The notes below the pieces were generated by a model. It did no database searches, was not told the DNA's origin, and saw only the letters and a program-made list of their open reading frames with translations. From contig NZ_JABBYJ010000001.1 of the NCBI RefSeq assembly GCF_012932565.1, positions 1,178,001 through 1,242,000 of the forward strand: a stretch of 64,000 bases of DNA, written 5' to 3'. The stretch is from Sneathiella limimaris (GTDB taxonomy: Bacteria; Pseudomonadota; Alphaproteobacteria; Sneathiellales; Sneathiellaceae). Below are positions 1-15,173 of the stretch, piece by piece. The translations under genes were made by a program, and so were the position numbers. Every line of letters begins with the position of its first letter. The first letter of the stretch is position 1.

Positions 1-373
1 CGGCCTCTTGGCGATTGCCATTCGCTCGATCGGTTTCTGTGCAAAGCTGCTTTATGAAGCGATTGAGGAGATTGATCCCAAACAGATTGAGGCAATCTCA
101 GCGACGGGTGCTTCCCGTTGGCAGGTCATGGTTTATGGCATCGTCCCGCAAATCTTGCCAGCCTTTGCCGGGATCTCGGTTTTCCGGTGGGATATTAATA
201 TCCGCGAGTCTACCGTTCTGGGCCTTGTGGGCGCAGGCGGTATTGGTCTACAACTGCAATCCTCATTAAATGTTCTGGCTTGGCCGCAGGTTGCCCTGAT
301 CCTGATTGTGATCCTGGTTGCTGTTGTGGTCGGCGAGTGGGTTTCTGCAAAGGTGCGCGGTGCAATCATCTAA
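1..373 (+). CDS. phnE: Phosphonate-type ABC transporter permease, C-terminal part (PhnE-like)
   Basis: This is the last 123 codons of a membrane permease whose start lies before the window. The visible part has the binding-protein-dependent permease loop (EAI...GASRWQVMVYGIVPQI, the EAA-type motif that docks on the ATPase), followed by a membrane segment ending in VVVGEWVSAKVRG. The phrase RESTVLGLVGAGGIG is typical of PhnE, the inner-membrane subunit of phosphonate/phosphate-ester importers. The next gene starts inside its last codons (14-base overlap), so the two are probably translationally coupled. The substrate is not shown by this fragment. Confidence 0.85.
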   Translation, partial: GLLAIAIRSIGFCAKLLYEAIEEIDPKQIEAISATGASRWQVMVYGIVPQILPAFAGISVFRWDINIRESTVLGLVGAGGIGLQLQSSLNVLAWPQVALILIVILVAVVVGEWVSAKVRGAII

Positions 374-1298
374 CCTGTTTGAAGACCTGTTTCCCTCCTT
401 GGATGGGGAACAGGCTTTTACTCTTTATGAGGCGGTCAAGGACCGCCTTCCTTTTGCCTCTCATCCGACAAATTCGGAACGCCATTCAGGACTTCTGGAT
501 GTTGCTCCATCTGTGGATGCGTTCGTTTTTGATGCCTTTGGTGTGCTGAATGTTGGAACCACTCCAATCCCTGGCGCAAGCGATTGTATTCAGGAACTCA
601 GAAGGCTGGGGAAGAAGGTGTTTGTGCTGACAAATGCGGCCAGCTTCAACCGCAATGAGACATTTGAAAAATTCAATAAGCTGGGTTTTGATTTCACTCA
701 TGACGAACTGGTGACCAGTCGAAATGCTGCCGAACTGGATCTGGCGAGTTTCGGGCCGGAGCATTGTTGGGGTGTTGCTGCTACCGATACATTCCGGATT
801 GAGGATCTGGCCTGCCAGTCCCTTGAAATTACGGATGATCCCGAAACCTATGAAAATGTGTCAGCCTTTCTGTTTCTGTCCGTACAGAATTGGACAGAAG
901 CGCGTCAGGCGCTGCTTGAAAAATCGTTGAGCCAAAACCCGCGGCCTGTTGTCATTGCCAATCCAGATATTGTCGCGCCGCGCGGTGAGTATTTCTCGGT
1001 AGAACCTGGTTACTTCGGGCATCGGATGGATCGACATTACGGTATTGATGTTCACTTCCATGGCAAGCCGTTTCCCTCTGTCTATGACTTAGTGGAAGAG
1101 CGCCTTCAGGGATCTCAGATCGAACCTGGCCGTATTTGCATGGTCGGTGATACTTTGCATACGGATGTGCTTGGCGGGGCTGCACGGGGGTGGAAAACTG
1201 CGCTTGTCACTGATCACGGTCTCTTCAAGGGACTGGATCCAGAGCTTTATATCGACAAAAGTGGCATTCGTCCTGACTGGATGGTAGGGTCAATCTGA
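360..1298 (+). CDS. HAD-superfamily hydrolase, class IIA type
   Basis: A 312-residue HAD-like phosphatase. The nucleophile motif is near residue 48 (VFDAFGVLNVG, first Asp nucleophile; the usual second Asp is Ala-Phe-Gly here), and the C-terminal metal motif GDTLHTDVLGGA is present. The cap position between them fits class IIA enzymes (NagD/CECR5-like). The GTG start at 360 was chosen because AAAGG lies at 349-353 with good spacing; an ATG at 318 would run deep into phnE. Coupling to phnE suggests a phosphatase for a phosphorus compound brought in by that importer, but this is inference from position. The substrate is unknown. Confidence 0.8.
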   Translation: MQSSNLFEDLFPSLDGEQAFTLYEAVKDRLPFASHPTNSERHSGLLDVAPSVDAFVFDAFGVLNVGTTPIPGASDCIQELRRLGKKVFVLTNAASFNRNETFEKFNKLGFDFTHDELVTSRNAAELDLASFGPEHCWGVAATDTFRIEDLACQSLEITDDPETYENVSAFLFLSVQNWTEARQALLEKSLSQNPRPVVIANPDIVAPRGEYFSVEPGYFGHRMDRHYGIDVHFHGKPFPSVYDLVEERLQGSQIEPGRICMVGDTLHTDVLGGAARGWKTALVTDHGLFKGLDPELYIDKSGIRPDWMVGSI

Positions 1299-1341
1299 GT
1301 TTAGGATCCGTTCCCGGTTTTTCCTTGAAGGAGCAGCTCAC

Positions 1342-2007
1342 ATGATCACGCCCGCCGTTTTGGACGTTGCCCTAACCGCGTTTGTCACCCTGTTCGTCAT
1401 TATCGACCCTTTGGGGTTGTTGCCCATTTTTATCAGTGTGACCAAGGGGACAACGCTTTCACATCAGCGCCGCATGGCTATTAAGGGAACCCTGATCGGC
1501 GGTGCCATGCTGCTGTTCTTTGCTCTGCTGGGGGATAAGTTTTTAGCTCTGCTCGGGGTTAGTCTGCCCTCTTTTCGGATCGCTGGCGGTGCCATGTTGT
1601 TTTTGATGGCGCTGGAAATGGTGTTTGATAAACGCAGTAAACGCCGGGAAAGCAGTGCTGAGTCCATGCGTGATGAGATTAAGGCGCACGAGAATGAGCA
1701 TCACGCCTTTGATGATGTCTCGGTATTTCCCCTGTCTATTCCGTTGATATCGGGCCCTGGCGCCATCTCCTCTATCATGCTGCTCATGAGTGCGAACCGG
1801 GATAATCTTGTCCATCAGGGAACAGTATTGCTGGTGTTAGGTGTGGTTCTTTTGATCACCCTGATTTTATTTTTGCTCGCGCCGCGCCTTGAAAAACTGA
1901 TGGGGGTGACCTTCACACAGATTGTCTCCCGCGTGCTTGGGGTGATCCTCGGCGCACTTGCCATTCAGTACATCGTCGACGGTATCAAGTTAAGCTTCGC
2001 CATATAA
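1342..2007 (+). CDS. MarC-family integral membrane protein
   Basis: 221 residues with six hydrophobic segments and the family signature near the start (FVTLFVIIDPLGLLPIF) and middle (PLSIPLISGPGAISSIM). These fit the MarC/YhgN/SNARE-like UPF0056 family of inner-membrane proteins. The family's transport role is not settled; the old link to multiple antibiotic resistance was not confirmed in E. coli. A polar, charged loop rich in Lys, Arg and Glu sits around residues 95-125. A good ribosome site (AAGGAG) precedes the ATG. The next gene begins 4 bases after its stop, so they are probably cotranscribed. Confidence 0.85.
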   Translation: MITPAVLDVALTAFVTLFVIIDPLGLLPIFISVTKGTTLSHQRRMAIKGTLIGGAMLLFFALLGDKFLALLGVSLPSFRIAGGAMLFLMALEMVFDKRSKRRESSAESMRDEIKAHENEHHAFDDVSVFPLSIPLISGPGAISSIMLLMSANRDNLVHQGTVLLVLGVVLLITLILFLLAPRLEKLMGVTFTQIVSRVLGVILGALAIQYIVDGIKLSFAI

Positions 2008-2010
2008 ATC

Positions 2011-2523
2011 ATGACAACACGTAAACTCTCTCTGGTGGTTGCCCCAGATCCAATCTTTCGTCAGAAAGCCAAACCGGTTGCAGAGGTCACGGATGAAACC
2101 CGGGATTATGTGCGCCAGATGTTTGATATTCTTGAGACTGAGAAGGGGATCGGAATTGGTGCCAATATGGTGGGCCTGACAGAGCAGATTATTGTGATCC
2201 ATATGAAAGACGGAGGCCCAGGTGATTATCTTGCCATGATCAATCCGCAAATCCTGCAAAGCTCTGAAGAGACACAAGAGTTTGAAGAAGCGTCTTTAAG
2301 CTACCCCGGCATTTCGGCTTCGATTACCCGTCCTGCCCAAATCGAGGTTCAGTATCTGGATCAACAGGGAGAAGAGAGAACCTTAAAAGCAGATGGGTTT
2401 CTCTCCACCGTCATTCAGCATGAGATGGATTACTTGCAGGGGCGCACTTACCTTGATCACCTATCTCGCCTCAAACGCAATACGCTTCTTCGGAAATACC
2501 AAAAGCTTCGTCAAGGGCGCTAA
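2011..2523 (+). CDS. Peptide-deformylase-like protein with altered active site
   Basis: 170 residues, the normal length for peptide deformylase, and all three motif regions can be recognised, but each is changed. Motif 1 reads GIGIGANMVG (residues 46-55), with Met where the active-site Gln normally stands. Motif 2 reads EASLSYPG (93-100), with Ser95 replacing the metal-binding Cys of EGCLS/EACLS. Motif 3 reads HEMDY (137-141), with Tyr replacing the second metal-binding His of HExxH. Only one of the three metal ligands is left. By homology this is unlikely to be a working iron/zinc deformylase; it may bind peptides or ribosomes, or have a new role. It follows the marC-like gene by 3 bases. 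A true def gene must be elsewhere in the genome. Confidence 0.8.
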   Translation: MTTRKLSLVVAPDPIFRQKAKPVAEVTDETRDYVRQMFDILETEKGIGIGANMVGLTEQIIVIHMKDGGPGDYLAMINPQILQSSEETQEFEEASLSYPGISASITRPAQIEVQYLDQQGEERTLKADGFLSTVIQHEMDYLQGRTYLDHLSRLKRNTLLRKYQKLRQGR

Positions 2524-2600
2524 CCTTGATTGTGGGAAATGGCTCTCCAAGTCTAAGGAGTATCACTACATCCAAAATCCCATAACCTTGGACACATCAT

Positions 2601-3782
2601 ATGGATCAGCTATTCCAGCCCTTTACATTACCCTGCGGTCGAATTTTAAAGAACCGTATTGTCAAATCTGCGATGTCAGACTCTCTGGGAGATGGCCAGG
2701 GAAATCCTACGGAAGCCCAGATCCGGCTTTATGAGCGATGGGCGGAAGGCGGGCTTGCGGTTGCTATTATCGGTGAGGTCCAGGGAAATCCTAATTTTGC
2801 CGAAAAGCCGGGAAATCTGGTTCTTCGGCCTGATGGTGAATTGGATAAATTTCGCGAACTTGCAAGGCGTGGGTCCGTAAATGGCGCTGAGCTTTGGCTG
2901 CAGCTTGGTCATGCTGGGGCCATGTCTCATCCTCCCATCAGTACACCCAAAGGACCCAGTCCCCTTGATATCGCTGGTTTGAAATCGGACGGATACAGCC
3001 GGGCGGAACTGCAAGACGTATCTACTGAATTTGCTGCGACGGCAGCGCTTGCAAAAAAGCTCGGTTTTGGCGGCGTACAAATTCATGCGGCCCATGGTTT
3101 CTTGCTCAGTCAATTTTTGTCGCCTCTTTTTAACAAGCGGACTGATCACTATGGCGGGTCCATTGAAAATAGAATGCGCCTGTTATTAGAGGTAATTCAA
3201 CAGGTTCGCGCCGCTGTCGGTCCGGATTTTCCCATTGCCGTTAAACTGAATGCAACAGATCAGCTTGAAGGTGGTCTGGAGGAAGAGGATGCACTCAAAG
3301 TCGTCGCTGCATTGGATGCGACCTCAATTGACTTGATTGATATCAGCGGCGGCACCTATTTTCCGGGGGCAAAATCCGCATCCGACGGGCTTGGTAAGGG
3401 GCCCTATTTTTTGGATTTCGCGGCACAGGCGCGACCTTTGACAAAGAAGCCACTGATGGCGACAGGTGGTTTCAAGGACCCCCGGCAAGCCATCGATGCG
3501 GTTAAATCAGGTGCGGTCGATTTGGTTGGAATGGCACGCGCTTTCGTTCTGGATCCAGCATTTCCAAAGAAATGGCAATCAGGTGACAAAGCTCCCCTGC
3601 CGTTCCCAAGATTTACCTCTCCACCCGAGGGAGGAATTACAGCCTGGTACAGCATGCAGCTCACCCACCTCGGCGGAGATGAACCTGTTGAGGATGCTTC
3701 AACCCTTCCAGCCGCACTTCAGGCTTATGAAGCACGTGATGAAGCGCGCAATAAGCTCTGGCGGAAACGGTTCAGGTCTTAA
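2601..3782 (+). CDS. NADH:flavin oxidoreductase, Old Yellow Enzyme family
   Basis: A 393-residue FMN-binding TIM-barrel enzyme. It carries the family blocks KNRIVKSAMSD near the N-terminus, VQIHAAHGFLLSQFLSP mid-protein, NKRTDHYGGSIENR just after, and the C-terminal phosphate-binding stretch MATGGF...VDLVGMARAF. Such enzymes reduce activated C=C bonds (enals, enones, nitroalkenes) with NAD(P)H. Without the C-terminal ferredoxin/NAD domains of 2,4-dienoyl-CoA reductase it is the short form. It converges on the halogenase gene with a 4-base overlap at the stops. The exact substrate cannot be told. Confidence 0.88.
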   Translation: MDQLFQPFTLPCGRILKNRIVKSAMSDSLGDGQGNPTEAQIRLYERWAEGGLAVAIIGEVQGNPNFAEKPGNLVLRPDGELDKFRELARRGSVNGAELWLQLGHAGAMSHPPISTPKGPSPLDIAGLKSDGYSRAELQDVSTEFAATAALAKKLGFGGVQIHAAHGFLLSQFLSPLFNKRTDHYGGSIENRMRLLLEVIQQVRAAVGPDFPIAVKLNATDQLEGGLEEEDALKVVAALDATSIDLIDISGGTYFPGAKSASDGLGKGPYFLDFAAQARPLTKKPLMATGGFKDPRQAIDAVKSGAVDLVGMARAFVLDPAFPKKWQSGDKAPLPFPRFTSPPEGGITAWYSMQLTHLGGDEPVEDASTLPAALQAYEARDEARNKLWRKRFRS

Positions 3783-5521
3783 AGGATACTCGGTTCCGAA
3801 AAGTCGCTTTTTGATTTTTCCTTAGGCTTGAAACTGATATTGGGCTTGGCACTTTGCCCGCCAAACATCACTGTTGGTTGCCCGCCCATGGGTACGCCAA
3901 CCGTTGCTTTTGACGAATAAGCCGCGGCCAGATTGCCATAAGGATTTGGGGCAGCAGCAGGCTTTGCAGTACCCTCTCCCCGAAATGCCGTGAGCAATTC
4001 ATAATGACCTGGCAACTTTTTGATCAGTGCCTTTTCCCGGTTCTTCATTTGGGTAACCCGTTTGACCCAGTCTTCTTTTCGAATGAACCGCTCTGCTGGA
4101 AATGTGGTGTCCTTGAAATAATCCTTGGCAAAAAGAACTGTCTCAAAGCTCATGCGGTTGAAAAGGAACGTCCGGTCAAACGGTGTGGTTAGCGGCAGGG
4201 TATGCTGATACTCATCCAGCATCTCCGCAAGGCTGTCCGGGATTTCCATTTCCTCCCGCGCAACCCGCCAGTACTCGCTATCCTGTCGGTTGTTGATGCA
4301 GTAATGCAGGACGATGAAATCCCGAATGGATTCCATCATCCGGTCAGTTGTTTCATTAAACCGCCGCGCCAGCGATGCGGGGAAGGACATATCGGGGAAA
4401 TTGAGCAGCAGCATCTTGATGGAATTTTCAATCATATAGATGGCTGTGGATTCCAATGGTTCGATAAAGCCAGCTGACAGGCCGATCGCGATACAGTTTT
4501 TCTCCCAGGTTTTTTCCATTCCACCGATATGCACCGGAATAGCGCGGGGCTCAGCGCCTTCGCCGCGAGGGCCGAGATGAGCAAGGAACTCCGCTATGGC
4601 TTCATCATCGGATCTGAAATCGCTGGAAAAGACATAACCGGTTCCAACCCGGTTAAACAGCGGTACATTCCAGACCCACCCTGCGCCCAGTGCTGTTGAG
4701 GTTGTGCATGGCTCGATCTGGGTCACGTCTTCATGGGGAATTTGAACGGCAAGGGCCCGGTTGTTCAACAGATATTTGCTGTAATCCTGACGCTTGACAC
4801 CCAAGGCTTCATTGATGATAACCCCTTTAAAACCGGTGCAGTCAACGACAAGCTGGATGGGGTGTTCGCCATTCCGTTGCAGGGTCAGGCTGGAGACAAA
4901 CCCCTTCTCATCCAGGTTGACGGCTTCCACGTCATCAAGCACATGGTTCACGCCGCGCTCAATGGAAATGTCTCTCAGGAATTCAGCAAATTTTCCAGCA
5001 TCCAGGTGATAGGCATAATTCAGTGTTTTTTCGTAATCCCCCTGATCCAGGGTTTTGGGTCCTCTTTTTGCGCGGATGGCGCCGACACTGGCGGACAGAA
5101 CATCATCAATATTCCGTTTGCCGTTGGGGCCACCGAACTTATGAAAATGGTAGGCGGGATTTTGTCCGCCAAGCTGGGCACTGTTGCCATCAAAAGGATG
5201 AATGAAAGACGTCGCATTGCCTTTGTGATCATGGGACCAGTTGACGAAGCGCACCCCCAGCTTGAAAGAGGCGTTACAGCGCCTGAAAAATTCCCGCTCC
5301 GAAATGGCGAGACTGCGAAGCAGGTCAGACATGCTGGGCACGGTCGCTTCCCCAACGCCAATCGTCGGCACATTCGGCGATTCAATCAGCGTGATTTTGG
5401 TAGGCGATTCCTTCTTGTTGGCGTTCATGTAGCGAACAAGAAAAGCGGCCGTAAGCCAACCGGCTGTTCCGCCGCCGACGATGGTGATTTCCGTGATTGG
5501 TTCTGACACTGGTTCCCCCAT
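3779..5521 (-). CDS. Flavin-dependent halogenase (tryptophan-halogenase family)
   Basis: 580 residues. The FAD site is IVGGGTAGWLTAAF (about 14-27). The catalytic lysine of PrnA-type halogenases is matched by Lys87 in ASFKLGVRFVNW. The family WxWxIP motif appears as WVWNVP (282-287), and the active-site Glu/Ser pair as PLESTAIY (355-362; Glu357, Ser358). In PrnA the residue after the Thr is Gly; here it is Ala360. The core thus looks competent to make an enzyme-bound hypohalous acid/haloamine from FADH2, O2 and halide. The last 60 residues or so are a low-complexity Pro/Gly/Ser tail not usual in the family. It lies 54 bases behind the alpha/beta hydrolase on the same strand, so both may answer to the HxlR regulator. 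No peptide synthetase or polyketide genes are nearby, so a free small-molecule substrate is likely but unknown. A flavin reductase partner is not adjacent. Confidence 0.9.
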   Translation of the reverse strand: MGEPVSEPITEITIVGGGTAGWLTAAFLVRYMNANKKESPTKITLIESPNVPTIGVGEATVPSMSDLLRSLAISEREFFRRCNASFKLGVRFVNWSHDHKGNATSFIHPFDGNSAQLGGQNPAYHFHKFGGPNGKRNIDDVLSASVGAIRAKRGPKTLDQGDYEKTLNYAYHLDAGKFAEFLRDISIERGVNHVLDDVEAVNLDEKGFVSSLTLQRNGEHPIQLVVDCTGFKGVIINEALGVKRQDYSKYLLNNRALAVQIPHEDVTQIEPCTTSTALGAGWVWNVPLFNRVGTGYVFSSDFRSDDEAIAEFLAHLGPRGEGAEPRAIPVHIGGMEKTWEKNCIAIGLSAGFIEPLESTAIYMIENSIKMLLLNFPDMSFPASLARRFNETTDRMMESIRDFIVLHYCINNRQDSEYWRVAREEMEIPDSLAEMLDEYQHTLPLTTPFDRTFLFNRMSFETVLFAKDYFKDTTFPAERFIRKEDWVKRVTQMKNREKALIKKLPGHYELLTAFRGEGTAKPAAAPNPYGNLAAAYSSKATVGVPMGGQPTVMFGGQSAKPNISFKPKEKSKSDFSEPSIL

Positions 5522-5575
5522 TTTCCAGGACTATGGGAAAATAGTATCAGATAATAGAAATTTAGGAAAACATCA

Positions 5576-6514
5576 TTAACTAGAATTGCGCCTTAAAAAC
5601 TCTCTGCTGATCGCAATCACTTCCGGCTCCTGCAAAATGCGGTTGTGACCAAGTCCGCCGGTCCGCACGAAAACCGCATCCTGCCAGCTTTTGGCTAGCC
5701 GTTCCCCTTCTTCAAACGGGACCATCTTATCCTTCAGATCATGAAAAATGAGGGCAGGGAGTTTGTAATTTTTGGATAGGGTAGAGCCACGAACGGCGTC
5801 AAATGGCAATCCATATCGCGTGGCCAATTGTGCTTCAGCATGCCTTGTGACCTTCGCATTAAACCCGATCAGCTTGGATAACCGATAGAGGTAACCTTTC
5901 AGATCTTCTGGGGGGGCCAGATAGATCACTTTTTCAATTTGCATCCCAAAGGAAAGTGCAAGGGTGGTTGCCGCCGCCCCGTTGGAGTGAGCGATAAGCG
6001 TGTCAATGTCGCCGTATGATTTCTGAAAAGCCGCTAGTAGCCGAGCAATTGCCGGCATTGAGATGCGCTTGCCCGGTGCATTTCCATGGGCAGGAAGATC
6101 CAGGGCTATGACCTGATACCCCTCTTCCAGCAACGGATCTGCAAAGGCGGAGAGCTGCCCGGCCCGACCAGAAAGCCCGTGAACCAGAAGCGCTTTTTTG
6201 TGGCCTTGCCCAAACGTGTAGACAGCCGCGCGATGTCCTTCGTGATCAAACCAATCCTGTTTTGCACTCTTCAGCCATTGCTGTTCCTTTTGGGGGATTG
6301 AATGCCGTTGCGGCGTTTCGAATATTTTTTGCAAACGCTTGCTACCCCATCCGGTGGAGGTGGAACTCGCAAGTCGGTTAAGGGCAAGAAAAACCAAAAT
6401 ACCAAATCCCGGCTTCTTAGACTTTCGCGGCTGTTTGGAAGTTTCGCTTCGGTCGATCAAGGTGGGAAAGGGCTCTACTGCCACTTCTGGCGGGGATTGA
6501 ATATCCGTCTGCAT
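5576..6514 (-). CDS. Alpha/beta hydrolase
   Basis: A 312-residue serine hydrolase. The oxyanion/HG region is LLVHGLSGRAGQ (about 110-120), the nucleophile elbow is AHSNG with Ser177, the acid is probably the Asp in FHDLKDKMVP, and the His is in LGHNRIL near the end. There is an extra N-terminal stretch of about 85 residues with a weakly hydrophobic patch (GILVFLALNRL). It is divergent from the HxlR regulator, across paired palindromes, and upstream of the halogenase, so it is likely the first gene of a regulated two-gene operon. The substrate is unknown; ester hydrolysis or detoxification is plausible. Confidence 0.82.
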   Translation of the reverse strand: MQTDIQSPPEVAVEPFPTLIDRSETSKQPRKSKKPGFGILVFLALNRLASSTSTGWGSKRLQKIFETPQRHSIPQKEQQWLKSAKQDWFDHEGHRAAVYTFGQGHKKALLVHGLSGRAGQLSAFADPLLEEGYQVIALDLPAHGNAPGKRISMPAIARLLAAFQKSYGDIDTLIAHSNGAAATTLALSFGMQIEKVIYLAPPEDLKGYLYRLSKLIGFNAKVTRHAEAQLATRYGLPFDAVRGSTLSKNYKLPALIFHDLKDKMVPFEEGERLAKSWQDAVFVRTGGLGHNRILQEPEVIAISREFLRRNSS

Positions 6515-6530
6515 ATTTTTGCCTATAGTT

Positions 6531-6582
6531 AGTTCTAAAAAGGAACTTAATGATTATTAGATATAAGTTCTCTTTTGGAACT
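6531..6582. promoter_or_regulatory. Two tandem palindromes, likely HxlR operator
   Basis: Two 17-base elements of the same design, AGTTC-N7-GAACT, lie at 6531-6547 and 6566-6582, 35 bases apart start to start. They sit in the 93-base gap between the divergent hydrolase and HxlR genes, where both promoters must be. HxlR-family proteins (for example YodB and HypR) bind palindromes with a 7-base spacer, so this is the expected site type. The reading as operator is inference from symmetry, repetition and position. Confidence 0.7.
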
Positions 6583-6607
6583 TGTCAAACTGTGTTAGGC
6601 TTAGCTC

Positions 6608-7069
6608 ATGAAATGGAAAGATTTGCAAAATGAAGACTGCCCGGTAGCAAGGGGACTATCCGTTATGGGGGATCGCTGGACCCTCCTTCTGCTTCGGGAC
6701 TGTTTTCTCGGGGTGCGCCGGTTCGATGATTTCCAGAAAAATCTCGGGGTTACCCGCCATGTGCTGGCGGATCGCTTGAAGCTTCTCTGTGATCGCGGGG
6801 TATTGGAAAAAAGGCCCTATCAGGATCGCCCGAAACGCTATGAATATAAACTGACGGAGAAGGGGAAGGCCTTCTTTCCGGTCTTGATGACGCTCATCAA
6901 CTGGGCTGATGAAGAATTCCCCACCGACAGTTCCTCACCCTATGAGTTTGTTGCTCGTGACACAGGTAAAAAACTGAAGCCGGAATTGACGGATGCCAAT
7001 ACTGGGGAGCGGCTGGAGCTGCGGAATATCATTCGCAAGGTGAGCGGACAGACCGAAGAAGTCTCCTAA
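6608..7069 (+). CDS. HxlR-family transcriptional regulator
   Basis: 153 residues, winged helix-turn-helix of the HxlR type: conserved start EDCPVARGLSVMGDRWTLLLLR with the family cysteine at residue 11, then FDDFQKNLGVTRHVLADRLK as recognition region and a YELT-like wing (YEYKLTEKG). The N-terminal Cys is the redox or electrophile sensor in several family members, so sensing a reactive quinone, aldehyde or hypohalous stress is possible but not proven. The tail of about 50 residues after the HTH domain is longer than in the smallest members. It is divergent from the hydrolase/halogenase pair, which it probably controls together with itself. Its stop overlaps the hmuV stop by 4 bases. Confidence 0.88.
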   Translation: MKWKDLQNEDCPVARGLSVMGDRWTLLLLRDCFLGVRRFDDFQKNLGVTRHVLADRLKLLCDRGVLEKRPYQDRPKRYEYKLTEKGKAFFPVLMTLINWADEEFPTDSSSPYEFVARDTGKKLKPELTDANTGERLELRNIIRKVSGQTEEVS

Positions 7070-7806
7070 AGGTGTACCCGTTCTTTCGGGATCTCATAGA
7101 GGCTGCTGACCTTTTCAACCGTCAACACCTCTTCTGTCGCGCCGGAGGCAAAATCCTGCCCATGCCGAAGGAGTTGAACCCGATCGCACACCTGCCGCGC
7201 CAGGTGCAGATCATGGAGCACGACGCAGATAGCGTAATTTCGCTGTTGAGCCAAATCCCGACAGAGATCAAACAAATGGAACTGGTGTTTCAGATCCAGG
7301 GCAGATGTGGGCTCATCCAAAAACAGAAGCGCGCCGTCCTGCTCCCACAGCTGGGCAAGCACGCGAGCCATATGGACACGTTGCTGCTCCCCACCTGACA
7401 GGCTGGTAAATTGTCGATCCGCTAGATGCAAGACATCCGTTAGCTTCAGGGCTTCCCGCGCAATATCCAGATCCTTCTCGCTATGACCAAGACCGCTTTG
7501 CTGTCCTCGGCCCATACTGGCAATTTCCAGCACTTTAAAAGGGAAGTTCAGGGTGATGTTTTGGGTTAGAACCGCTCTTTTATGAGAGAGATCCTCCAGT
7601 GCATAATCATTAAGGGGTTGGTCCAGCAGATAGATCTCACCACTTGTCGGTTGATGATATCCGGACAGGCATTTGAGCAGGGTGGATTTTCCCGCTCCAT
7701 TGGGTCCCAGAATGCCGAAGATCTGGCCTCTGTTCACTTCAACGGAGATATCGACAAGGATCTCCTTTCCGGCAATCTGGAAAGAGAGATTTTGGGCACG
7801 CAACAT
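7066..7806 (-). CDS. hmuV: Haem ABC transporter ATP-binding protein
   Basis: 246 residues: Walker A GPNGAGKST (34-42), signature LSGGEQQR, Walker B LLFLDEPTSALD, and an H-loop in VVLHDLHLA. The gene order directly after the haem permease and the length match HmuV, which powers import of haem across the inner membrane. The start is set at the ATG at 7806, two bases after the hmuU stop; longer readings would run into hmuU. It is the last gene of the haem operon and converges on the HxlR gene. Confidence 0.92.
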   Translation of the reverse strand: MLRAQNLSFQIAGKEILVDISVEVNRGQIFGILGPNGAGKSTLLKCLSGYHQPTSGEIYLLDQPLNDYALEDLSHKRAVLTQNITLNFPFKVLEIASMGRGQQSGLGHSEKDLDIAREALKLTDVLHLADRQFTSLSGGEQQRVHMARVLAQLWEQDGALLFLDEPTSALDLKHQFHLFDLCRDLAQQRNYAICVVLHDLHLARQVCDRVQLLRHGQDFASGATEEVLTVEKVSSLYEIPKERVHL

Positions 7807-7808
7807 AA

Positions 7809-8852
7809 TCAGATTTGTCCTCTGCTCTGACGGATGAGAAGCCATAAGAAAAAGGGCCCCCCGACTAGACTGGTGAGGATACCTACCGGAATTTCGGTGG
7901 GTGCTGCAACCGTTCTTGCAATCGTATCTGCAAAAAGAAGAAGCGCTGCCCCAAAAAGCGCGGATCCGGGAATAAGCAGTTTGTGATCTGCCCCAAAGGT
8001 CAGTCGGATGAGATGCGGTACCACAAGGCCAATAAAGCCAATAACGCCGCTCACCGAAACAGATGCGCCAACACAAAGGGCCGCGCAAATTACAATAACA
8101 CGTTTCAGTTTATGGGTATCCACACCGATATAAGTGGCGTTCTCTTCTCCCAGCAAAAGAATGTTGAGCTCTCGGGCCTTGCGGGTGATCATAAAGACGC
8201 AAGGCAGGATGATGGTGGCCGTGACCAGAACCGGCTCCCACATGGCGCCGCCAAGGCTGCCCATGGTCCACATGGAAATTTCCCTGAGCTGCTGATCCGT
8301 GCTGAGAAAGCTCAGAAAGCCAACCCCTGCAAAGGTGAGAGCATTGATTGCAATGCCGGCCAGCAGCATATGGGTGACGGAAAAGACACCGGAAATGCGC
8401 GCCAACCGAAGGATGAGGAGGGAAGTGATGGTGCCCCCGATGAACGCGGCAAAGCCGAGCCCATAAAGACCACCGATACCGGTGAGTGCCCCTGCAAAAA
8501 CAATCACAAAGGCGACACTCAAAGCGGCGCCGCCCGTAATCCCGATGAGTGTCGGATCAGCAAGTGGGTTGCGGAAAATTCCCTGCATAGCTGCCCCTGA
8601 GATGCCGAGTGCTGCTCCAACCAATATGGCCAGCAGGACGCGGGGTATTCGAATGCTGACAAGGACCTGCTGATGGAATTCAGAAAGGGTTCCCGAAATC
8701 ATCTGGATGACGGGAATTTCAATAGCGCCCATACTTGCCCCAAACAGGGCAGCGAGCAGCACAAGAACTGCAAGGGCGATAAGGATCCCAAGTATTGGCG
8801 GTTTTTCCGAAAACCTGTCTGCTGCGGTAAACCGCCTTAAGGCAGCAATCAT
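7809..8852 (-). CDS. hmuU: Haem ABC transporter permease (FecCD family)
   Basis: 347 residues, about ten membrane segments. Typical FecCD blocks are RIPRVLLAILVGAALGISGA, GIFRNPLADPTLIGITGGAAL and GVIGFIGLVVPHLIR. It forms the inner-membrane channel for haem delivered by HmuT and driven by HmuV. Its start overlaps the hmuT stop by 4 bases (ATGA), a sign of translational coupling. Confidence 0.93.
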   Translation of the reverse strand: MIAALRRFTAADRFSEKPPILGILIALAVLVLLAALFGASMGAIEIPVIQMISGTLSEFHQQVLVSIRIPRVLLAILVGAALGISGAAMQGIFRNPLADPTLIGITGGAALSVAFVIVFAGALTGIGGLYGLGFAAFIGGTITSLLILRLARISGVFSVTHMLLAGIAINALTFAGVGFLSFLSTDQQLREISMWTMGSLGGAMWEPVLVTATIILPCVFMITRKARELNILLLGEENATYIGVDTHKLKRVIVICAALCVGASVSVSGVIGFIGLVVPHLIRLTFGADHKLLIPGSALFGAALLLFADTIARTVAAPTEIPVGILTSLVGGPFFLWLLIRQSRGQI

Positions 8853-9682
8853 TTTGCGGTGAGCTTCCTGTTAAGTTCTATGGCAGCATCCACGGTGCGC
8901 GGTCCAAACCCAAGCAACAGCAAGGCGTCCATATCAACAACCTTCTTCTGCTGGCCGGCAGGTGTTAGGGCTAGTCCGGGAAGTTCTAGAAATTTCTCGA
9001 TACCGCCAACGCTTTGAAGGGAGCTGGTGGAAACGATCAGATAATCCGGGGCATATTTTACGGCAGCTTCCGGGGTCAGCGGTTTATAGCGCTCATAATC
9101 CTGCACCACATTCTCTGCCCCGGCCAGTTCAATGATGCTATCTGCAGAAGTTCCCTTACCGGCAACCATAGGGGCCCCGCCGTGGTTCATCAGAAACATG
9201 ACCCGCGGTGCCGCCTTCTGTTTGGATTTCAGCTCCTCCAGATTGCGAAGGGCTGCAGTCATTTGGGCATTAAGTTCAGCGCCTTTGGCTGGCACCCCTA
9301 AGAGTGACGCCAATTCCACATTGTTGCCCATGACGTCATCCAATGACTTGGCAGCCTTTAACTTCACCAGTTTTACATTCGCAGCTTGAAGTTGCGCCAG
9401 AACTGGGGGCGGTCCAGCCTCCTCTGTCAGGATAACAGCCCCTGGTTTTAGGGATAAAACTCCTTCTGTCGATAGCGTGCGCATATAACCGACCTTTGGA
9501 AGGTCTTCGGCTGCGGGCGGGAAATAGCTGGTTGTGTCACTGCCTACCAGTTTTGCCTCCTGCCCGAGCGCATAGACCGTTTCTGTCAGGCTCCCCCCGA
9601 TTGAGATAATCCGGTTTAAGTCCTCGCCATGAACAAATGTGGGGGTTAGTAAAATTAGGGCGAGGGCAAGCAATTTCTTCAT
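8849..9682 (-). CDS. hmuT: Periplasmic haem-binding protein
   Basis: 277 residues with a clear signal peptide (MKKLLALALILLTPTFVHG) and the class III binding-protein fold of haem and siderophore carriers. RIISIGGSLTETVYALG opens the mature domain, and the Tyr in VGYMRTLSTEG matches the haem-ligating tyrosine region of HmuT/PhuT/ShuT. It collects haem released by the outer-membrane receptor and hands it to HmuUV. It overlaps exbD by 4 bases at its start. Confidence 0.92.
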   Translation of the reverse strand: MKKLLALALILLTPTFVHGEDLNRIISIGGSLTETVYALGQEAKLVGSDTTSYFPPAAEDLPKVGYMRTLSTEGVLSLKPGAVILTEEAGPPPVLAQLQAANVKLVKLKAAKSLDDVMGNNVELASLLGVPAKGAELNAQMTAALRNLEELKSKQKAAPRVMFLMNHGGAPMVAGKGTSADSIIELAGAENVVQDYERYKPLTPEAAVKYAPDYLIVSTSSLQSVGGIEKFLELPGLALTPAGQQKKVVDMDALLLLGFGPRTVDAAIELNRKLTAK

Positions 9683-10113
9683 GGGGTACTTTCTTTTTGC
9701 ATCAGGATATTTGCAGCCTCAATCCCTTGAGATTGCAGATAAGTCAAAACACCAAGGAGCCGCTCAAGTGAGACGGATTTATCCCCTGCGATGACCAGTT
9801 TGTGTTCCGGTTTTTGGGCCAGTGTATCTTCAAGCGCTTTTTTCAAACCTTCCAGATCGGAAAACTCGGTGCCATCCACCGCATAATTGTCAGCGCGAAG
9901 TTCCAGCATGATGTGTTTCTGTTCGGCGGTGCGGGTCTGCTGTTCGCTCACCGATTTTGGCAAGGTCAGATCCAGCGACCGATAAACAGCACCAGCCGTC
10001 AGAATGAAAAAAACCAGCAGGATAAACAGGATATCCAGAAGAGTGGTCAGGTCGGGCAGAAACCCGCCATCCTCTTCCTGTTCCCCAATACCAGCTCCGC
10101 CGGCGCTAATCAT
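9679..10113 (-). CDS. exbD: Biopolymer transport protein ExbD
   Basis: 144 residues, one membrane anchor near residues 20-42 with the proton-path Asp in PDLTTLLDILFILLVFFIL. The rest is a periplasmic domain. With ExbB it turns the proton gradient into motion of TonB, which opens the haem receptor. A private exbBD pair inside the haem operon is common in alphaproteobacteria. It overlaps exbB and hmuT by 4 bases each. Confidence 0.92.
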   Translation of the reverse strand: MISAGGAGIGEQEEDGGFLPDLTTLLDILFILLVFFILTAGAVYRSLDLTLPKSVSEQQTRTAEQKHIMLELRADNYAVDGTEFSDLEGLKKALEDTLAQKPEHKLVIAGDKSVSLERLLGVLTYLQSQGIEAANILMQKESTP

Positions 10114-10718
10114 GAGGCGATCCTGTGTTGATTAGAGGAATTGGCATTGGATTGATCTATACCGTGGCTGGTTTTCTCAAGTTCGAAACTCAGGGACTGG
10201 GCATTTAAGCGGGCAACCACAGTTTCAATGATCCGCTGCTTGTGGCTCTGAAAAATGCCGGCACTGATTACAGATGGCAGAGCAATCATCAGTCCGAATG
10301 CAGTGGTCAGTAATGCTTCCCACAAACCATCCGCGATCATGTTTGGGGTCACCGGTGCATCCGCCGCCGCAATGACCCGAAACGCATCAATAATTCCTAG
10401 GATCGTTCCCAAAAGTCCAAGCAGCGGTGCGACAGCCGCAACCAGTTTGAGCAGGTTTAACCCTCGGGCAAGCGGCCTCGCATTTTCGCTGACGGCCAGG
10501 CTAACAACTTCATCACGCAAGGCTTTTGGCTCGGCTTTATGGATATTGAGAATACCCATCAATCGCTTGCTCAATTTGCGGCCGTTGAAATCCACCAGCA
10601 GGAAAAAAATCGCGCGCTCGAGAATAATCATGGCTGCCAGGATTGAGCTGACCAGAAGTGGCCAGCCCATAACACCCAGCTTTTCAAAGCTGTCTGATAG
10701 CAGGATCTCAAGCGGCAT
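10110..10718 (-). CDS. exbB: ExbB/TolQ-type proton channel protein
   Basis: 202 residues with three membrane segments: about 15-37, then a pair in VAAVAPLLGLLGTILGIIDAF and EALLTTAFGLMIALPSVIS, the MotA/TolQ/ExbB core. It works with ExbD and TonB. Its start lies 11 bases inside hmuS, and its stop overlaps the exbD start. Confidence 0.92.
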   Translation of the reverse strand: MPLEILLSDSFEKLGVMGWPLLVSSILAAMIILERAIFFLLVDFNGRKLSKRLMGILNIHKAEPKALRDEVVSLAVSENARPLARGLNLLKLVAAVAPLLGLLGTILGIIDAFRVIAAADAPVTPNMIADGLWEALLTTAFGLMIALPSVISAGIFQSHKQRIIETVVARLNAQSLSFELEKTSHGIDQSNANSSNQHRIAS

Positions 10719-11778
10719 TTGCCACCTTCCGTGGGCTCAAGGCAGCAATGATTTCCCGCCAGGTGTCGAGCTCCTTCTCACCTGGTTTGCGCTTGCCAAA
10801 GAACGTGGCGATAATGTTGCCGTCCTTGTCAAAAACTTCCAGAGCCGTCACATCTCCATCAACGGTTGGCTTCTTGGTAACCCAGCACCGGGTGATTTCA
10901 GCCTCGTTCAGATGCATGGTGTATTTTGGGTCCATGATGTTGAACCAGGTGCCATAATCCACCAGCTTGTTGACCGCACCGGTGAAGATCTGAATGCAAC
11001 CTCTATTGCCAACAAAGATCATGATCTCGCATTCCTTTTCGCGAGCCATCTCGACGACTTTGCGAACGGCATCCGTGTCGACCTCATAGGCAAGGTCAGT
11101 GCCGATCTTGCGAAATGCCTGTTCCCGGCCAACCTTGTATTTACGGAGCATGCCAAAGAAATCGTGGGTATCTTTCATGTTCTCCCAGGAAGTGCGAAGG
11201 CCCTCCCAATCGATCTCTTCATCGGGAAGATCTGCGGCAGGTGCTGGATAGGCCGTGAGCGCCAGTGCCGGGTTCTGATCTTCTGCCTGATATTTGGCAA
11301 CAACAGCGTCATAAGCTGCTTCATCAGAATGATTGGTTAGGTGAATCTTGTGAAGCGCTTCGCCGGATTTATCAAAGAACTGCAGGCTCTTTTTTGTGCC
11401 CGCTTTTGTCTCGTCGGTCACGGCAAAGGTAAAGGTCCAATGATCCATGAACAGGCGCAGATCAATTTCTGGCGTCACAAAAAGACCCATGTTCATTTTG
11501 CCCCGCTCAAAGAATTTTGCGCCCTTATAGATACCCTTGTTTTCATTGACGCAGCTTTCATTGCGGGTCAGGGCCATTACCTCTCCCAGTGGTTCCAGCT
11601 CGGCGAGGATTTCTTTGGGCCGGTTCTCCAGACGGATAACATCCTTCCCAATCCTGGTTGCCAATAGTTCTGCTTCAGATACGCCCAACGCCTCAGCGAT
11701 GTTGCGGATCCGCATTGACGGGTTTTCTGCTTTCATCGCTTCATAGCGTGACGCCAGCTCAGATATCTCTTGTGTCAT
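10708..11778 (-). CDS. hmuS: Haem-degrading/trafficking factor HmuS
   Basis: 356 residues, the usual length for HemS/HmuS/ChuS, built of two similar halves (for example GDVMALTRNE-like and GNRGCIQIFTG blocks). These cytoplasmic proteins take haem from HmuUV and carry it or open the ring to release iron. The second half carries VGNRGCIQIFTGAV and the conserved FNIMDPKYTMHLNEAEI, close to family members. It sits between tonB (16-base gap) and exbB (overlap). Confidence 0.93.
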   Translation of the reverse strand: MTQEISELASRYEAMKAENPSMRIRNIAEALGVSEAELLATRIGKDVIRLENRPKEILAELEPLGEVMALTRNESCVNENKGIYKGAKFFERGKMNMGLFVTPEIDLRLFMDHWTFTFAVTDETKAGTKKSLQFFDKSGEALHKIHLTNHSDEAAYDAVVAKYQAEDQNPALALTAYPAPAADLPDEEIDWEGLRTSWENMKDTHDFFGMLRKYKVGREQAFRKIGTDLAYEVDTDAVRKVVEMAREKECEIMIFVGNRGCIQIFTGAVNKLVDYGTWFNIMDPKYTMHLNEAEITRCWVTKKPTVDGDVTALEVFDKDGNIIATFFGKRKPGEKELDTWREIIAALSPRKVANAA

Positions 11779-11794
11779 TTAAGGTCTACTCCAG

Positions 11795-12763
11795 TTAGTT
11801 AATGACAAAGCTCACGGGTACTCGGACCCAGCTTGAAACTCTCACTCCATTTCGAACCAGCGGTTCGAACTCCCACTTTTTCACAGCCGCCATCGCGGCC
11901 TTGTCCAGCAGACGATGGCCGGACGATGTTTCGATTTTCAGCTCTCTAGTTTTGCCGTTCGGTTCAATCAGTGCGGTCAGGGTTACAAGACCCTGTTGAC
12001 CCAGGTCATAGGCCCGCTTTGGGTAGACCGGTGGGGTGCGCTTTCGGTATTTGGCGTTTTGAATTACGGTGGAGTTGCTGTGTCCCTGATCGTCAGAGAC
12101 AGATGATTTCGTTGGTTGAGAAGGTTGCTCAACGTGTTTCTGGACAGGTTTTTCAGTCTTTTTTGCCTCAGGGGCGGGTGCCAGTTTGGCAACCTGTGGC
12201 GTTTCGATTGGCTTTTTAGGCTTGACCGTCTCTGGTTTGACAGCCGGCTTTTCGACAATCTTTTCCGCTACCTGTTGGGGTGGTTCCGGCAGGCTTGGCT
12301 TTTTGGCCACAAGACGCGGTGTTGGCACCGGCTCTACCTTTTCAACGGGCTTTGGTTCTGGCGTTGGTTCAACCTTTTTCTCAATCGGTTCAACCATGTC
12401 TTTAACCGGCTCGAATTTCTGCCAGTCGGCAGCGGCAAAATCCTGAGTTTCAACATCAACACTAGGCTTAACCGGGGCAGGGGGTTCGGGCAGGACTGCA
12501 GGCTCAATCACCTCTTCAACAGGCTTTTGAACGGACACGGGTTCCGGCGGTATCTCGGCAGGCGTGGCCTCGGGTACCGGTTCTGATTTTGGTGCTGACA
12601 GTGTCTGAATTGAGATCTGGATTTGCTCAACAGGTGGAATTGGGTTTGGTTTGGCGCTCAGGTCAATGGAGTTGAAAAGATACCCATGGACAAAGAGCGA
12701 CAGGGTGAGAACCCCACCCCATCGCACCAGATCACCCATGTCCATTGACCGAGAGACTACCAT
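11795..12763 (-). CDS. tonB: TonB energy transducer
   Basis: 322 residues: one N-terminal membrane anchor (about 12-30), a long periplasmic linker rich in Pro, Glu, Lys and Val (about 35-225), and the C-terminal TonB domain with YPKRAYDLGQQGLVTL, AAMAAVKKWEFEP and a final SWVRVPVSFVIN. The linker lets it span the periplasm to the TonB box of the receptor. Its start overlaps the receptor stop by 7 bases. The repetitive Pro-Glu-Pro coding gives long spurious reading frames on the other strand. Confidence 0.92.
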   Translation of the reverse strand: MVVSRSMDMGDLVRWGGVLTLSLFVHGYLFNSIDLSAKPNPIPPVEQIQISIQTLSAPKSEPVPEATPAEIPPEPVSVQKPVEEVIEPAVLPEPPAPVKPSVDVETQDFAAADWQKFEPVKDMVEPIEKKVEPTPEPKPVEKVEPVPTPRLVAKKPSLPEPPQQVAEKIVEKPAVKPETVKPKKPIETPQVAKLAPAPEAKKTEKPVQKHVEQPSQPTKSSVSDDQGHSNSTVIQNAKYRKRTPPVYPKRAYDLGQQGLVTLTALIEPNGKTRELKIETSSGHRLLDKAAMAAVKKWEFEPLVRNGVRVSSWVRVPVSFVIN

Positions 12764-14793
12764 TTAATGCGGACCCTCGCGGCGAAGTTCACGCCCTCTT
12801 CTGGAAGGGAGGCGAACCGCTTCGTGTAATATTTGTCGAAAACATTCTCGACGGCCAGATCAAGGGACAGGTTCTGCAAGTCGCCCTCACTTGGTGCGAA
12901 ACGATAGTAGATATCGTGAACGCCGTAACCGGCTGTCTGTTCACTTTCCTCCGCGTGATCGTTTTCGTTTGCGTAACGGGCACGCCAACCGAACGTGGAA
13001 GAAATATCTTCAAACAGGTAGCTGACATCAGTAGTTAGCGTTAGCGGAACATTGTTGCCAAGATACTCACCTGTATCTTCATCCTCTGCTTCGACGTAGC
13101 TGAGGCCTGTCTTGAAGCTGAAGTTTGAAATGCGATAGTCGCCTTCGACTTCAAAACCCCACAAGCGGGCATTGTCCACATTGTAATTTTCAGTGGTTCC
13201 GGCAAAAACATCAACTTCCTGCGTAATGAAATCTTTGCCCTTGCTGTAGTGCCAGGCACCCTTGATGCGCAGCTCATCATCCTCGCTTGCAAGTTGCTGG
13301 AAATTGACGCCGGCACCCAGCTCAAACGTTGTCACGGTTTCCGGCTTCAGATCCGGGTTCGGGACGAAGTTGTTGTTTGGAATGAAGGGTGGAAAGCCCG
13401 GGAAATGCTGACCGCTTGGATAAAGCTCGGTCATGTTTGGTGCGCGGAAGGCTTGCGCGATGCTACCAAAGAAAACAAAGTTTTCAGTAGGTTTGTAGCT
13501 CACCGCAATTTTCGGGGAAACGGCACTTTCATTCTGGCTGTTGCCATCGTCATCATCGCTCCGATACTGATCAAAGCGCACTGCTGGGATGATCAGGAAC
13601 TGCCCTGCACCTGTCTCAAGCTTAATCTCGTCCTGCAGATAGATACCCCATGTCAGGGCCTCTGCATCCGGTACGCCTGGACGTGATCCATCAGCGGTAG
13701 CCGTGCTAAAGCCTTCCTGTTCATCTTGGTAGACTTCCACACCATAAGAGAATGTATGTGAATGGCCGTCTGAGACGTCAAACCTGCTTTGGTTATCAAT
13801 GGTAAGGCCTATTGTGTCGAGCGCACGCACCTGAACACGTCCAAGGTTGGAGCCGCTGATATCGGTTTCCTCAACCTCTGTATCGTTATAATAGGCATGA
13901 ACTTTCAGGTTCACCAAATCGTCGGTTGGATTGTCATATTCGTAGCGCAGGCTGAACTGGTCATCATCCACCAGCTTGTCGACAACCGGGTTGGAGGAGC
14001 CGATCCCACCGGATGGGTTGTTGGGCTCCTGCCCATCGTTCTGAAGGCCTTGGTACTGGAATTTAACCGTGTGCCAGTCGCCCAATGTGTAGCCCGCTTT
14101 AAAGAGGCCAGAGAGAACCTGGTCATCAGTGGAGAGATCCTCTCCGTCACCATCCCGGATATCGCCTGAATTACGGAATGTCACGCTGCCCAACAGATCA
14201 AGATTACCTGTTCGGCCATAGACACTGCCCATAGAGGAAGTTTCCTCATTTGCCGTGCGAACACCAAAGCTGCCAATGGCGCCGATAGACTGACCGGGTT
14301 TGAGAAGGTCTGAAGCATCCTTGGTTTCAAAGGCAACAACGCCGCCAATGGCGCCGCCACCATAAATGGAGGATGCAGCACCCTTGACCACTTCAACCCG
14401 TTTCAAAAGAAGAGGATCGAAATAGAAGCGGCCATCATGAGCAGACTCAAAATTCTGTCGCCGTCCATCCATCAGGGTAATGATGGCTTCTTTGTCAAAT
14501 CCGCGAATGGTAACGGTTTGACCATTGCGGCGTGGACCGTTGATGACATCCACACCCGGGGTCATTTTTAAAAGACCTTCAGTATCGTTGGACAGAGCCG
14601 TTCCTGGGGCCTCGGCATCGATGGTGTTGACCATTAATGGTACATCAAAGGAGGATTGTTCACTCTTGGTCGCGTAGACCGTGACCGTATCTAAGGTTGA
14701 ACTGTCGGCGACTTCTTCCGCAAGGACCTGAGACGATAAAACTGTTGTTGTTAAAAGCGCAGCCGTAAAGCGCACGCAAGACACTCTTCGCAT
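12757..14793 (-). CDS. hmuR: TonB-dependent haem/haemoprotein receptor
   Basis: 678 residues: signal peptide ending near VLSSQVLAEE, TonB box region (TLDTVTVYATKS), plug domain with TPGVDVINGPRRNG and IRGF, then a 22-strand barrel ending in a C-terminal aromatic-like residue (VRIKW). The haem receptor FRAP and NPNL boxes are present as FRAPNMTELYP and NPDLKPE, with a His between them. ATG at 14793 was chosen over GTG at 14805 because GTGGGA precedes it at good distance. It is the outer-membrane gate of the operon; whether haem or a host haemoprotein is the natural ligand is not visible. Confidence 0.92.
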   Translation of the reverse strand: MRRVSCVRFTAALLTTTVLSSQVLAEEVADSSTLDTVTVYATKSEQSSFDVPLMVNTIDAEAPGTALSNDTEGLLKMTPGVDVINGPRRNGQTVTIRGFDKEAIITLMDGRRQNFESAHDGRFYFDPLLLKRVEVVKGAASSIYGGGAIGGVVAFETKDASDLLKPGQSIGAIGSFGVRTANEETSSMGSVYGRTGNLDLLGSVTFRNSGDIRDGDGEDLSTDDQVLSGLFKAGYTLGDWHTVKFQYQGLQNDGQEPNNPSGGIGSSNPVVDKLVDDDQFSLRYEYDNPTDDLVNLKVHAYYNDTEVEETDISGSNLGRVQVRALDTIGLTIDNQSRFDVSDGHSHTFSYGVEVYQDEQEGFSTATADGSRPGVPDAEALTWGIYLQDEIKLETGAGQFLIIPAVRFDQYRSDDDDGNSQNESAVSPKIAVSYKPTENFVFFGSIAQAFRAPNMTELYPSGQHFPGFPPFIPNNNFVPNPDLKPETVTTFELGAGVNFQQLASEDDELRIKGAWHYSKGKDFITQEVDVFAGTTENYNVDNARLWGFEVEGDYRISNFSFKTGLSYVEAEDEDTGEYLGNNVPLTLTTDVSYLFEDISSTFGWRARYANENDHAEESEQTAGYGVHDIYYRFAPSEGDLQNLSLDLAVENVFDKYYTKRFASLPEEGVNFAARVRIKW

Positions 14794-14842
14794 GTTAATT
14801 CCCACTGACTGGATTAAAAGGCGATGGCTTGCTGCCTTGCGA

Positions 14843-14856
14843 CCTCCCGCGGGAGG
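14843..14856. other. Perfect 14-base palindrome in the hemP-receptor gap
   Basis: CCTCCCGCGGGAGG is its own reverse complement and would fold as a five-pair GC stem with a CGCG loop in the transcript. It lies between hemP and the receptor gene and is not followed by a T-run, so it is not a classic terminator. A stabilising or processing hairpin that sets receptor levels is possible. Confidence 0.45.
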
Positions 14857-14880
14857 ATGGCTGGGTGGCTTGCTACTAAC

Positions 14881-15054
14881 CTACTTCGTTAATATAAGCT
14901 TGCCGTTTCCGGTAAGTTGCAGTTTGTACTCGTCCCCATTATGCAAAATGCTCAGCTGACGACAGGACTGGAAGATCTGTTCACTTTCAATCCTGTTATC
15001 GACCACTGGAATCTGTCGAACCCGCGGGTCTGATTTTTGCTGCTCGGTACTCAT
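14881..15054 (-). CDS. hemP: Hemin uptake protein HemP
   Basis: A 57-residue protein ending in the hallmark DEYKLQLTGNGKLILTK, after an SEQIFQSCRQLSILH block matching the HemP family. HemP is a small, poorly understood leader protein of alpha- and betaproteobacterial haem operons; in some species (HmuP) it is an activator of the receptor gene. The ATG at 15054 gives typical length; a GTG at 15069 is possible, and neither has a strong ribosome site. It is the first gene after the Fur-like box. Confidence 0.88.
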   Translation of the reverse strand: MSTEQQKSDPRVRQIPVVDNRIESEQIFQSCRQLSILHNGDEYKLQLTGNGKLILTK

Positions 15055-15102
15055 AAGAAAACTGCTCACACGCTAAGGAAACGGCGGTAACTCCGTTGCT
15101 AT

Positions 15103-15137
15103 TAAGAATGATTATCAATAGCGTGATAGTGAGTCAA
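15103..15137 (-). promoter_or_regulatory. Fur-like box and promoter of the haem operon
   Basis: On the minus strand the 15-mer TGATAATCATTCTTA (15117 down to 15103) matches the Fur consensus TGATAATnATTATCA at 12 of 14 fixed positions, inside a wider imperfect palindrome with TATT/AATA arms (15100-15120). A -35-like TTGACT lies at 15132-15137, with TAATCA 17 bases on at 15109-15114. The box therefore covers the -10 region, the expected layout for iron-dependent repression by Fur (or an alphaproteobacterial relative). Confidence 0.75.
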
Positions 15138-15173
15138 GTGGTTTGATGGAAAATTAAATCCTTCATGCCCTTG

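Follow-up and report, generated by a model that had tools for sequence, protein, structure and literature searches.

A conserved pair of predicted operators accompanies one clade of HxlR-type regulators while the divergent partner gene changes

Two palindromes of the form AGTTC-N7-GAACT, found between a hydrolase gene and an hxlR gene in a 64-kb stretch of Sneathiella limimaris DNA (hereafter the window), are very probably docking sites of the neighbouring HxlR protein. Comparison with related loci indicates that they form a real and conserved twin operator, as yet a predicted one, of a known kind of regulator, which is defined here for one clade. With regard to function, we consider it probable that the palindromes are twin operators of an adjacent HxlR autorepressor, which would also silence the divergent gene and would be released at its residue Cys11. 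The features of the locus are collected in Table 1.

Table 1. Positions in the window of the genes and predicted regulatory elements around the site pair
Feature	Position	Strand	Basis or remark
Flavin-dependent halogenase, 580 aa	3779..5521	-	PF04820, E 1.1e-134; aligned to solved halogenases
ATACTATTTTCC, possible -10 region of the halogenase's own promoter	5536..5547	-	One match in window, 0.01 expected
Alpha/beta hydrolase, 312 aa, immediate divergent neighbour, presumed target	5576..6514	-	Pfam Abhydrolase/Hydrolase_4
Distal operator AGTTCTAAAAAGGAACT (predicted)	6531..6547	.	Motif search; second copy at 30 of 80 related loci
-10-like TATATC, hydrolase side	6560..6565	-	17 bp after TTGACA; sequence
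Proximal operator AGTTCTCTTTTGGAACT (predicted)	6566..6582	.	-42 to -26 from hxlR start codon; motif search
Putative hxlR -35 region TTTTGG	6573..6578	+	Inside proximal operator, 17 bp before -10
-35-like TTGACA, divergent (hydrolase) promoter	6583..6588	-	Directly abuts proximal operator; TGTCAA kept in logo
hxlR -10 TAGGCT, TGT before	6596..6601	+	-12..-7 from ATG
hxlR, 153 aa, Cys11, putative recognition helix TRHVLADRL	6608..7069	+	PF01638

The first-pass annotation of this DNA had reported two copies of the palindrome, and both are present as described, as AGTTCTAAAAAGGAACT and AGTTCTCTTTTGGAACT, within the 93-bp gap (6515-6607) that separates the divergent hydrolase (minus strand) and hxlR (plus strand) genes. 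They are the sole two copies in the window, and 100 shuffles of the window gave a mean of 0.01 copies and never reached two. An Rfam search of window positions 1-16000 returned no match.

The expectation that the motif would also stand out across the genome held only in part. Exact copies number 8 in the whole genome versus 7 for the reversed control, and a single copy is therefore near chance, which points towards the refuting condition that the first-pass annotation itself had named, a motif scattered at random across the genome. Two HxlR genes, nonetheless, account for three of the eight copies, in their upstream regions, and the remaining five fall within open reading frames and were dropped as regulon members. 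A consensus derived from the comparison of related loci, RGTTCHNWWWNDGAACY, yields 7 sites in the genome versus 2 for its control. Four of these are upstream of the same two HxlR genes; of the other three, one precedes a thiolase gene, one precedes a thioesterase gene, and one, at 1948531, is inside a reading frame and was dropped as a target. The longer pattern TTGACARGTTCN7GAACYT occurs twice in the genome, both times at HxlR genes, versus none for the control, and has one match among 384 further genomes drawn from the class. As separate observations, a paralogous HxlR gene of this genome, facing away from a MATE efflux gene, is accompanied by a site pair of slightly different type, GTTCA-N5-TGAAC (G000:C1:1637291-1637337; L049 about 9292-9338), and ACTTC-N7-GAAGT upstream of another of its HxlR genes is a suggestive single site.

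Relatives of the regulator were recovered from 41 of 95 genomes, its own included, at E<=1e-20, and the best 80 of 109 related hxlR loci were compared. With at most one mismatch, the motif is found within 130 bp upstream of hxlR at 53 of these 80 loci and in two copies at 30, counts that overstate independence because the rows share descent. The reversed control, at the same tolerance, was found in none of the same 80 upstream regions, and the remaining 633 kb of the loci contain 13 motif matches. When two mismatches are allowed, 64 of the 80 loci possess a site, compared with one for the reversed control and a background of 0.019 per upstream region. Furthermore, variation of the spacer across the same 80 regions gave 83 matches for a spacer of 7 and 12 for a spacer of 11, and no match for spacers of 3-6 and 8-10. 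The upstream counts and the spacer test thus favour the earlier suggestion that the adjacent HxlR has a pair of operators here, each with a 7-base spacer.

The position of the site is also fixed. At 43 of the best 80 of 109 loci, a site with up to two mismatches lies at -46..-38, and in the 44-row alignment formed by these loci and the window, 32 rows place the first base of the site at precisely -42 relative to the hxlR ATG. The logo of this proximal site, TA-AGTTC-YYTTTYG-GAACC-TGTCAA, has an asymmetric and conserved spacer (YYTTTYG), whereas the spacer of the distal site is looser (AGTnRGTTCYnWWWnRGAACYnACT, 49 loci). Where a locus has just two sites (49 loci, up to two mismatches), the distance from start to start is 22-32 bp, and the 35 bp of the window pair falls outside this range. 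The same gene order as in the window, with AGTTCTAAAAAAGAACT and AGTTCCCTTTTGGAACT in the corresponding gap, is found in S. glossodoripedis (G008, locus L054). Its regulator is 61% identical, and it is the sole other carrier found among 24 Sneathiella genomes, several of which are incomplete, so that absence of the regulator from the others is not secure.

The occurrence of the site also follows the regulator itself. Residues R50-H51 of the putative recognition helix and the site are both present in 61 of the best 80 of 109 loci and both missing in 12, with four loci carrying only R50-H51 and three carrying only the site, although these rows are not independent. It is on such grounds that we regard as extremely unlikely the alternative that the palindromes serve some other regulator, or arose by chance and have nothing to do with HxlR. 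The genome-wide exact count, close to its control, speaks for that alternative; against it, the sites track HxlR and its recognition-helix residues through many genera and with a constant spacing to the hxlR start. The association does not extend to HxlR proteins at large, to which the first-pass annotation had ascribed palindromes with a 7-base spacer. Upstream of 41 other HxlR genes, a spacer of 7 is not enriched, with 9 exact 5-bp palindromes compared with 6-23 for spacers of 2-6 and 8-13, some of these regions having been measured from the match start rather than from a verified start codon. In a literature search judged by titles, none was found that describes this operator, an HxlR-MATE divergon or an HxlR-halogenase divergon.

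The regulator matches PF01638 with an E-value of 4.5e-22 (78.2 bits, cut-off 20.8). Cys11, to which attention had already been drawn, proved to be present in every one of the 86 aligned rows. Downstream of hxlR, a convergent set of heme/B12-type ABC transporter and ExbB/ExbD genes occupies positions 7066-10718, and by eye similar frames also adjoin hxlR of S. glossodoripedis. Elsewhere among the HxlR matches, frames of about 340 aa at G002:C100:38160-39017 and G087:C461 (L023) each contain two HxlR matches and are apparently tandem-fused domains, and several other Sneathiella HxlR frames are 315-338 aa long.

By sequence, the closest solved chains are PA1607 (2f2e, E 1.4e-27) and 4gcv (E 2.3e-26), two uncharacterised HxlR proteins for which we know of no operator or signal. 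In a structure-sequence search, the regulator also matched YodB (5hs7, E 1.3e-9) and QsrR (4hqe, E 0.00033). YodB, CatR and QsrR, from Bacillus and Staphylococcus, have the DUF24 group and a conserved N-terminal Cys in common with the window protein, but differ from it in operator letters and in targets; the YodB operator is reportedly TACT-N7-AGTA. Excerpts of published work describe all three as DUF24 thiol-switch repressors of detoxification genes that respond to quinones or diamide (PMC6943732, PMC6798810, PMC10458429). Sensing of electrophiles or thiols through the window HxlR is plausible. B. subtilis HxlR (7bzd, E 2e-7) is of the same family and shares Cys11 by number, an equivalence drawn from position and not from structural superposition. 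It is said to have two 25-bp binding regions at hxlAB. The window protein differs from this activator in two respects: its residue 13 is Val rather than Lys, and the position of its sites suggests repression. In excerpted form, the formaldehyde switch of the B. subtilis protein is described as joining Cys11 and Lys13 (PMC9224381); as residue 13 is V, I, L, M or A and never Lys in the 86 rows, this switch is missing here.

The arrangement of the predicted promoters indicates what binding at the sites might accomplish. In the 32 rows with a site at -42, T and A occur in 30 rows each at -12 and -11, T occurs in 22 rows at -7, and G in 25 rows at -14. This extended -10 is so placed that the ATG would itself be the transcription start, and the hxlR promoter is thus probably leaderless. 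The proximal palindrome overlaps the predicted hxlR -35 region, and its 17 bp are at the same time the exact spacer of the minus-strand arrangement TTGACA-17-TATATC, so that it fills the spacer of the predicted divergent promoter. The hydrolase-side -10 appears the weaker one, as only its first two bases, TA, are kept in relatives while the sixth T is not. Together with the lack of TTGACA at several loci (e.g. L081, L094, L096, L100, L102 and L104) and a consensus scan of the locus that found no sigma-70 promoter, this makes the hydrolase-side promoter less sure.

Because the proximal site lies over the hxlR -35 and within the divergent spacer, steric repression of both genes is the likeliest outcome. 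The palindromes would serve as tandem operators bound by dimers of the adjacent, DUF24/MarR-like HxlR. The proximal operator would cover the -35 region of the leaderless hxlR promoter and also sit between the -35 and -10 of the hydrolase promoter, and the distal operator would fall no more than about 25 bp past the hydrolase transcription start, as counted from the predicted -10. By occluding polymerase, bound HxlR would then repress hxlR itself and, still more tightly, the hydrolase gene, with the halogenase gene being reached only via read-through. Modification of Cys11 by an electrophile or oxidant would release the repressor, and the substrate of the hydrolase may be a toxic acyl or ester compound.

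The main rival to this repressor model, which we judge unlikely, holds that the operators do belong to HxlR, but that the protein activates the divergent genes, its dimers reshaping, or recruiting at, a promoter whose -10 is weak. The poor hydrolase-side -10 and the empty promoter scan agree with such a role, and precedents exist in B. subtilis HxlR, a positive regulator of hxlAB, and in the activator HypR, as far as excerpts of the relevant papers describe them (PMC9224381, PMC6943732, PMC10458429). However, a dimer bound over the hxlR -35 and in the divergent spacer would block polymerase, whereas the sites of an activator are expected upstream of the -35. Nor does residue 13, never Lys in the 86 rows, allow the Cys11-Lys13 switch of that precedent.

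Under the repressor model, the presumed target is the hydrolase, in which S177, D262 (or D259) and H290 form a candidate triad, all four residues being invariant in a 3-row alignment. The halogenase gene follows 54 bp behind. Its product contains the motifs of a flavin-dependent (Trp-type) halogenase, namely GGGTAG at 16-21, K87, E357, and WVWNVP at 282-287, in which V replaces the I of WxWxIP. We take these to have their usual roles in halogenases, with K87 and E357 presumably as the catalytic Lys and Glu, and the enzyme looks intact. At its stop codon, the halogenase gene (minus) overlaps by 4 bp (3779-3782) that of an Old Yellow Enzyme-type gene (2601-3782, plus).

A terminator scan of the 54-bp gap between the hydrolase and halogenase genes detected none. 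The gap does contain ATACTATTTTCC, which at 11 other Sneathiella halogenase loci is exact in three, occurs with 1-3 mismatches at -34..-42 in four, and is absent from the upstream regions of four, including that of S. glossodoripedis, the window's nearest partner. As the element is present in the gap and in other halogenase upstream regions, the halogenase may have a promoter of its own, for which this pattern is suggestive only. Of 24 Sneathiella genomes, 12, among them that of the window, contain a strong PF04820 match (E<=1e-116), which in G007 has an inner stop. Around 10 of these 12 matches, neither an HxlR nor a hydrolase gene was found at a distance of up to about 1.5 kb, nor was the motif found between genes. 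The hxlR-hydrolase-halogenase trio was encountered only in the window and in S. glossodoripedis among the Sneathiella genomes, and a search of the full loci located a halogenase, apart from the window's, at one (L054) of the best 80 of 109. The S. glossodoripedis halogenase (G008:C12:1037558-1038945, L045) is broken into two frames close to the N terminus, through either a frameshift or a sequencing error.

These distributions bear on the proposal of the first-pass annotation that the locus is a regulon for halogen or quinone stress, with the halogenase as the regulator's functional partner. The proposal draws on the tandem arrangement with no detected terminator, on the recurrence of the trio in S. 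glossodoripedis, there without the possible halogenase promoter element, and on the invariance of Cys11, given that DUF24 relatives are described, in an excerpt, as sensing HOCl and quinones (PMC6943732). We nevertheless hold it to be very unlikely: a halogenase accompanies one of the best 80 of 109 related loci, ten of the twelve strong matches are unlinked to HxlR, the window gene may have its own promoter, and the S. glossodoripedis copy is split. The halogenase is thus not supported as the meaningful target, and what remains in favour of a response to reactive halogen compounds is the shared family and an adjacency in two genomes. The halogenase looks to be a local hanger-on, and not the point of the system.

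Partner genes vary across the clade. Labels were assigned by a tblastn search of the divergent strand out to 1.2 kb at all of the best 80 of 109 loci, superseding an earlier Pfam scan of 53 of 72 candidate ORFs (19 omitted by eye as wrong-frame or unrelated; no candidate ORF at 8 of the 80 loci). The partners are a MATE efflux protein at 37 loci, an SDR at 14 and an alpha/beta hydrolase at 8, with none recognised at 19 and two loci too short. Every one of the 59 loci with a recognised divergent partner carries a site with up to two mismatches, and 15 of the 19 loci without a recognised partner are also without a site. The hxlR-MATE divergons, mostly from Rhodobacterales, hold the same operator in all 37 cases, usually paired and usually at -42, but differ from the window in that MATE efflux (with a 4HBT thioesterase also present at 13 of the 37) takes the place of hydrolase and halogenase. 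On the protein tree, the hydrolase-, SDR- and MATE-linked regulators each require at least two label changes, forced by well-supported branches, with labels that were set by hand and miss L062, L066, L074, L081, L092 and L098 (MATE) and L095 and L126 (SDR). As labels change on the tree while the sites are kept, it appears that the operator stayed while the partner changed.

Beyond the divergon, a RGTTCHNWWWNDGAACY site lies 51 bp upstream of an unlinked thiolase gene (G000:C1:1669514-1669530; L154 1501-1517), which is predicted to be a further target of HxlR. The thiolase gene occurs in 4 of 24 Sneathiella genomes at E<=1e-60. That of S. glossodoripedis (G008, L181) has an exact AGTTCCAAAAAAGAACT upstream, such that the thiolase operator is present in both Sneathiella genomes found with this regulator. 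In genome G016, the thiolase upstream region contains no operator, and the closest HxlR seen is 49% identical with just a 2-mismatch match upstream; at a completeness of 56%, G016 cannot with certainty be said to lack the regulator. The upstream region of the copy in G006 is cut off by a contig end.

A second RGTTCHNWWWNDGAACY site precedes a 4HBT thioesterase gene by 68 bp (G000:C1:1768437-1768453; L155 1501-1517). It is not claimed as a target, since, of 22 other Sneathiella loci, the 21 scanned (the last lies at a contig edge) gave no match with at most one mismatch, and matches with two mismatches were found in G023 and G006 only. This site sits in a longer near-palindrome, ACCTATTA...TAATAGGT.

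A broader scenario is one to which we assign a low probability. The twin operator would be a portable cassette of one HxlR clade that captures efflux, thioesterase, SDR, hydrolase or halogenase genes according to lineage, and that in Sneathiella governs a scattered regulon (hxlR, hydrolase-halogenase, thiolase) for the handling of a self-made halogenated or acyl electrophile. Irrespective of that scenario, an HxlR clade for which no operator was found in the literature searched gains a predicted tandem operator, AGTnRGTTCYnWWWnRGAACYnACT, together with a promoter layout and candidate targets. The comparison also corrects the tempting story of a halogenase regulon, and suggests instead that in this clade partner genes have been exchanged while the operator has been kept.
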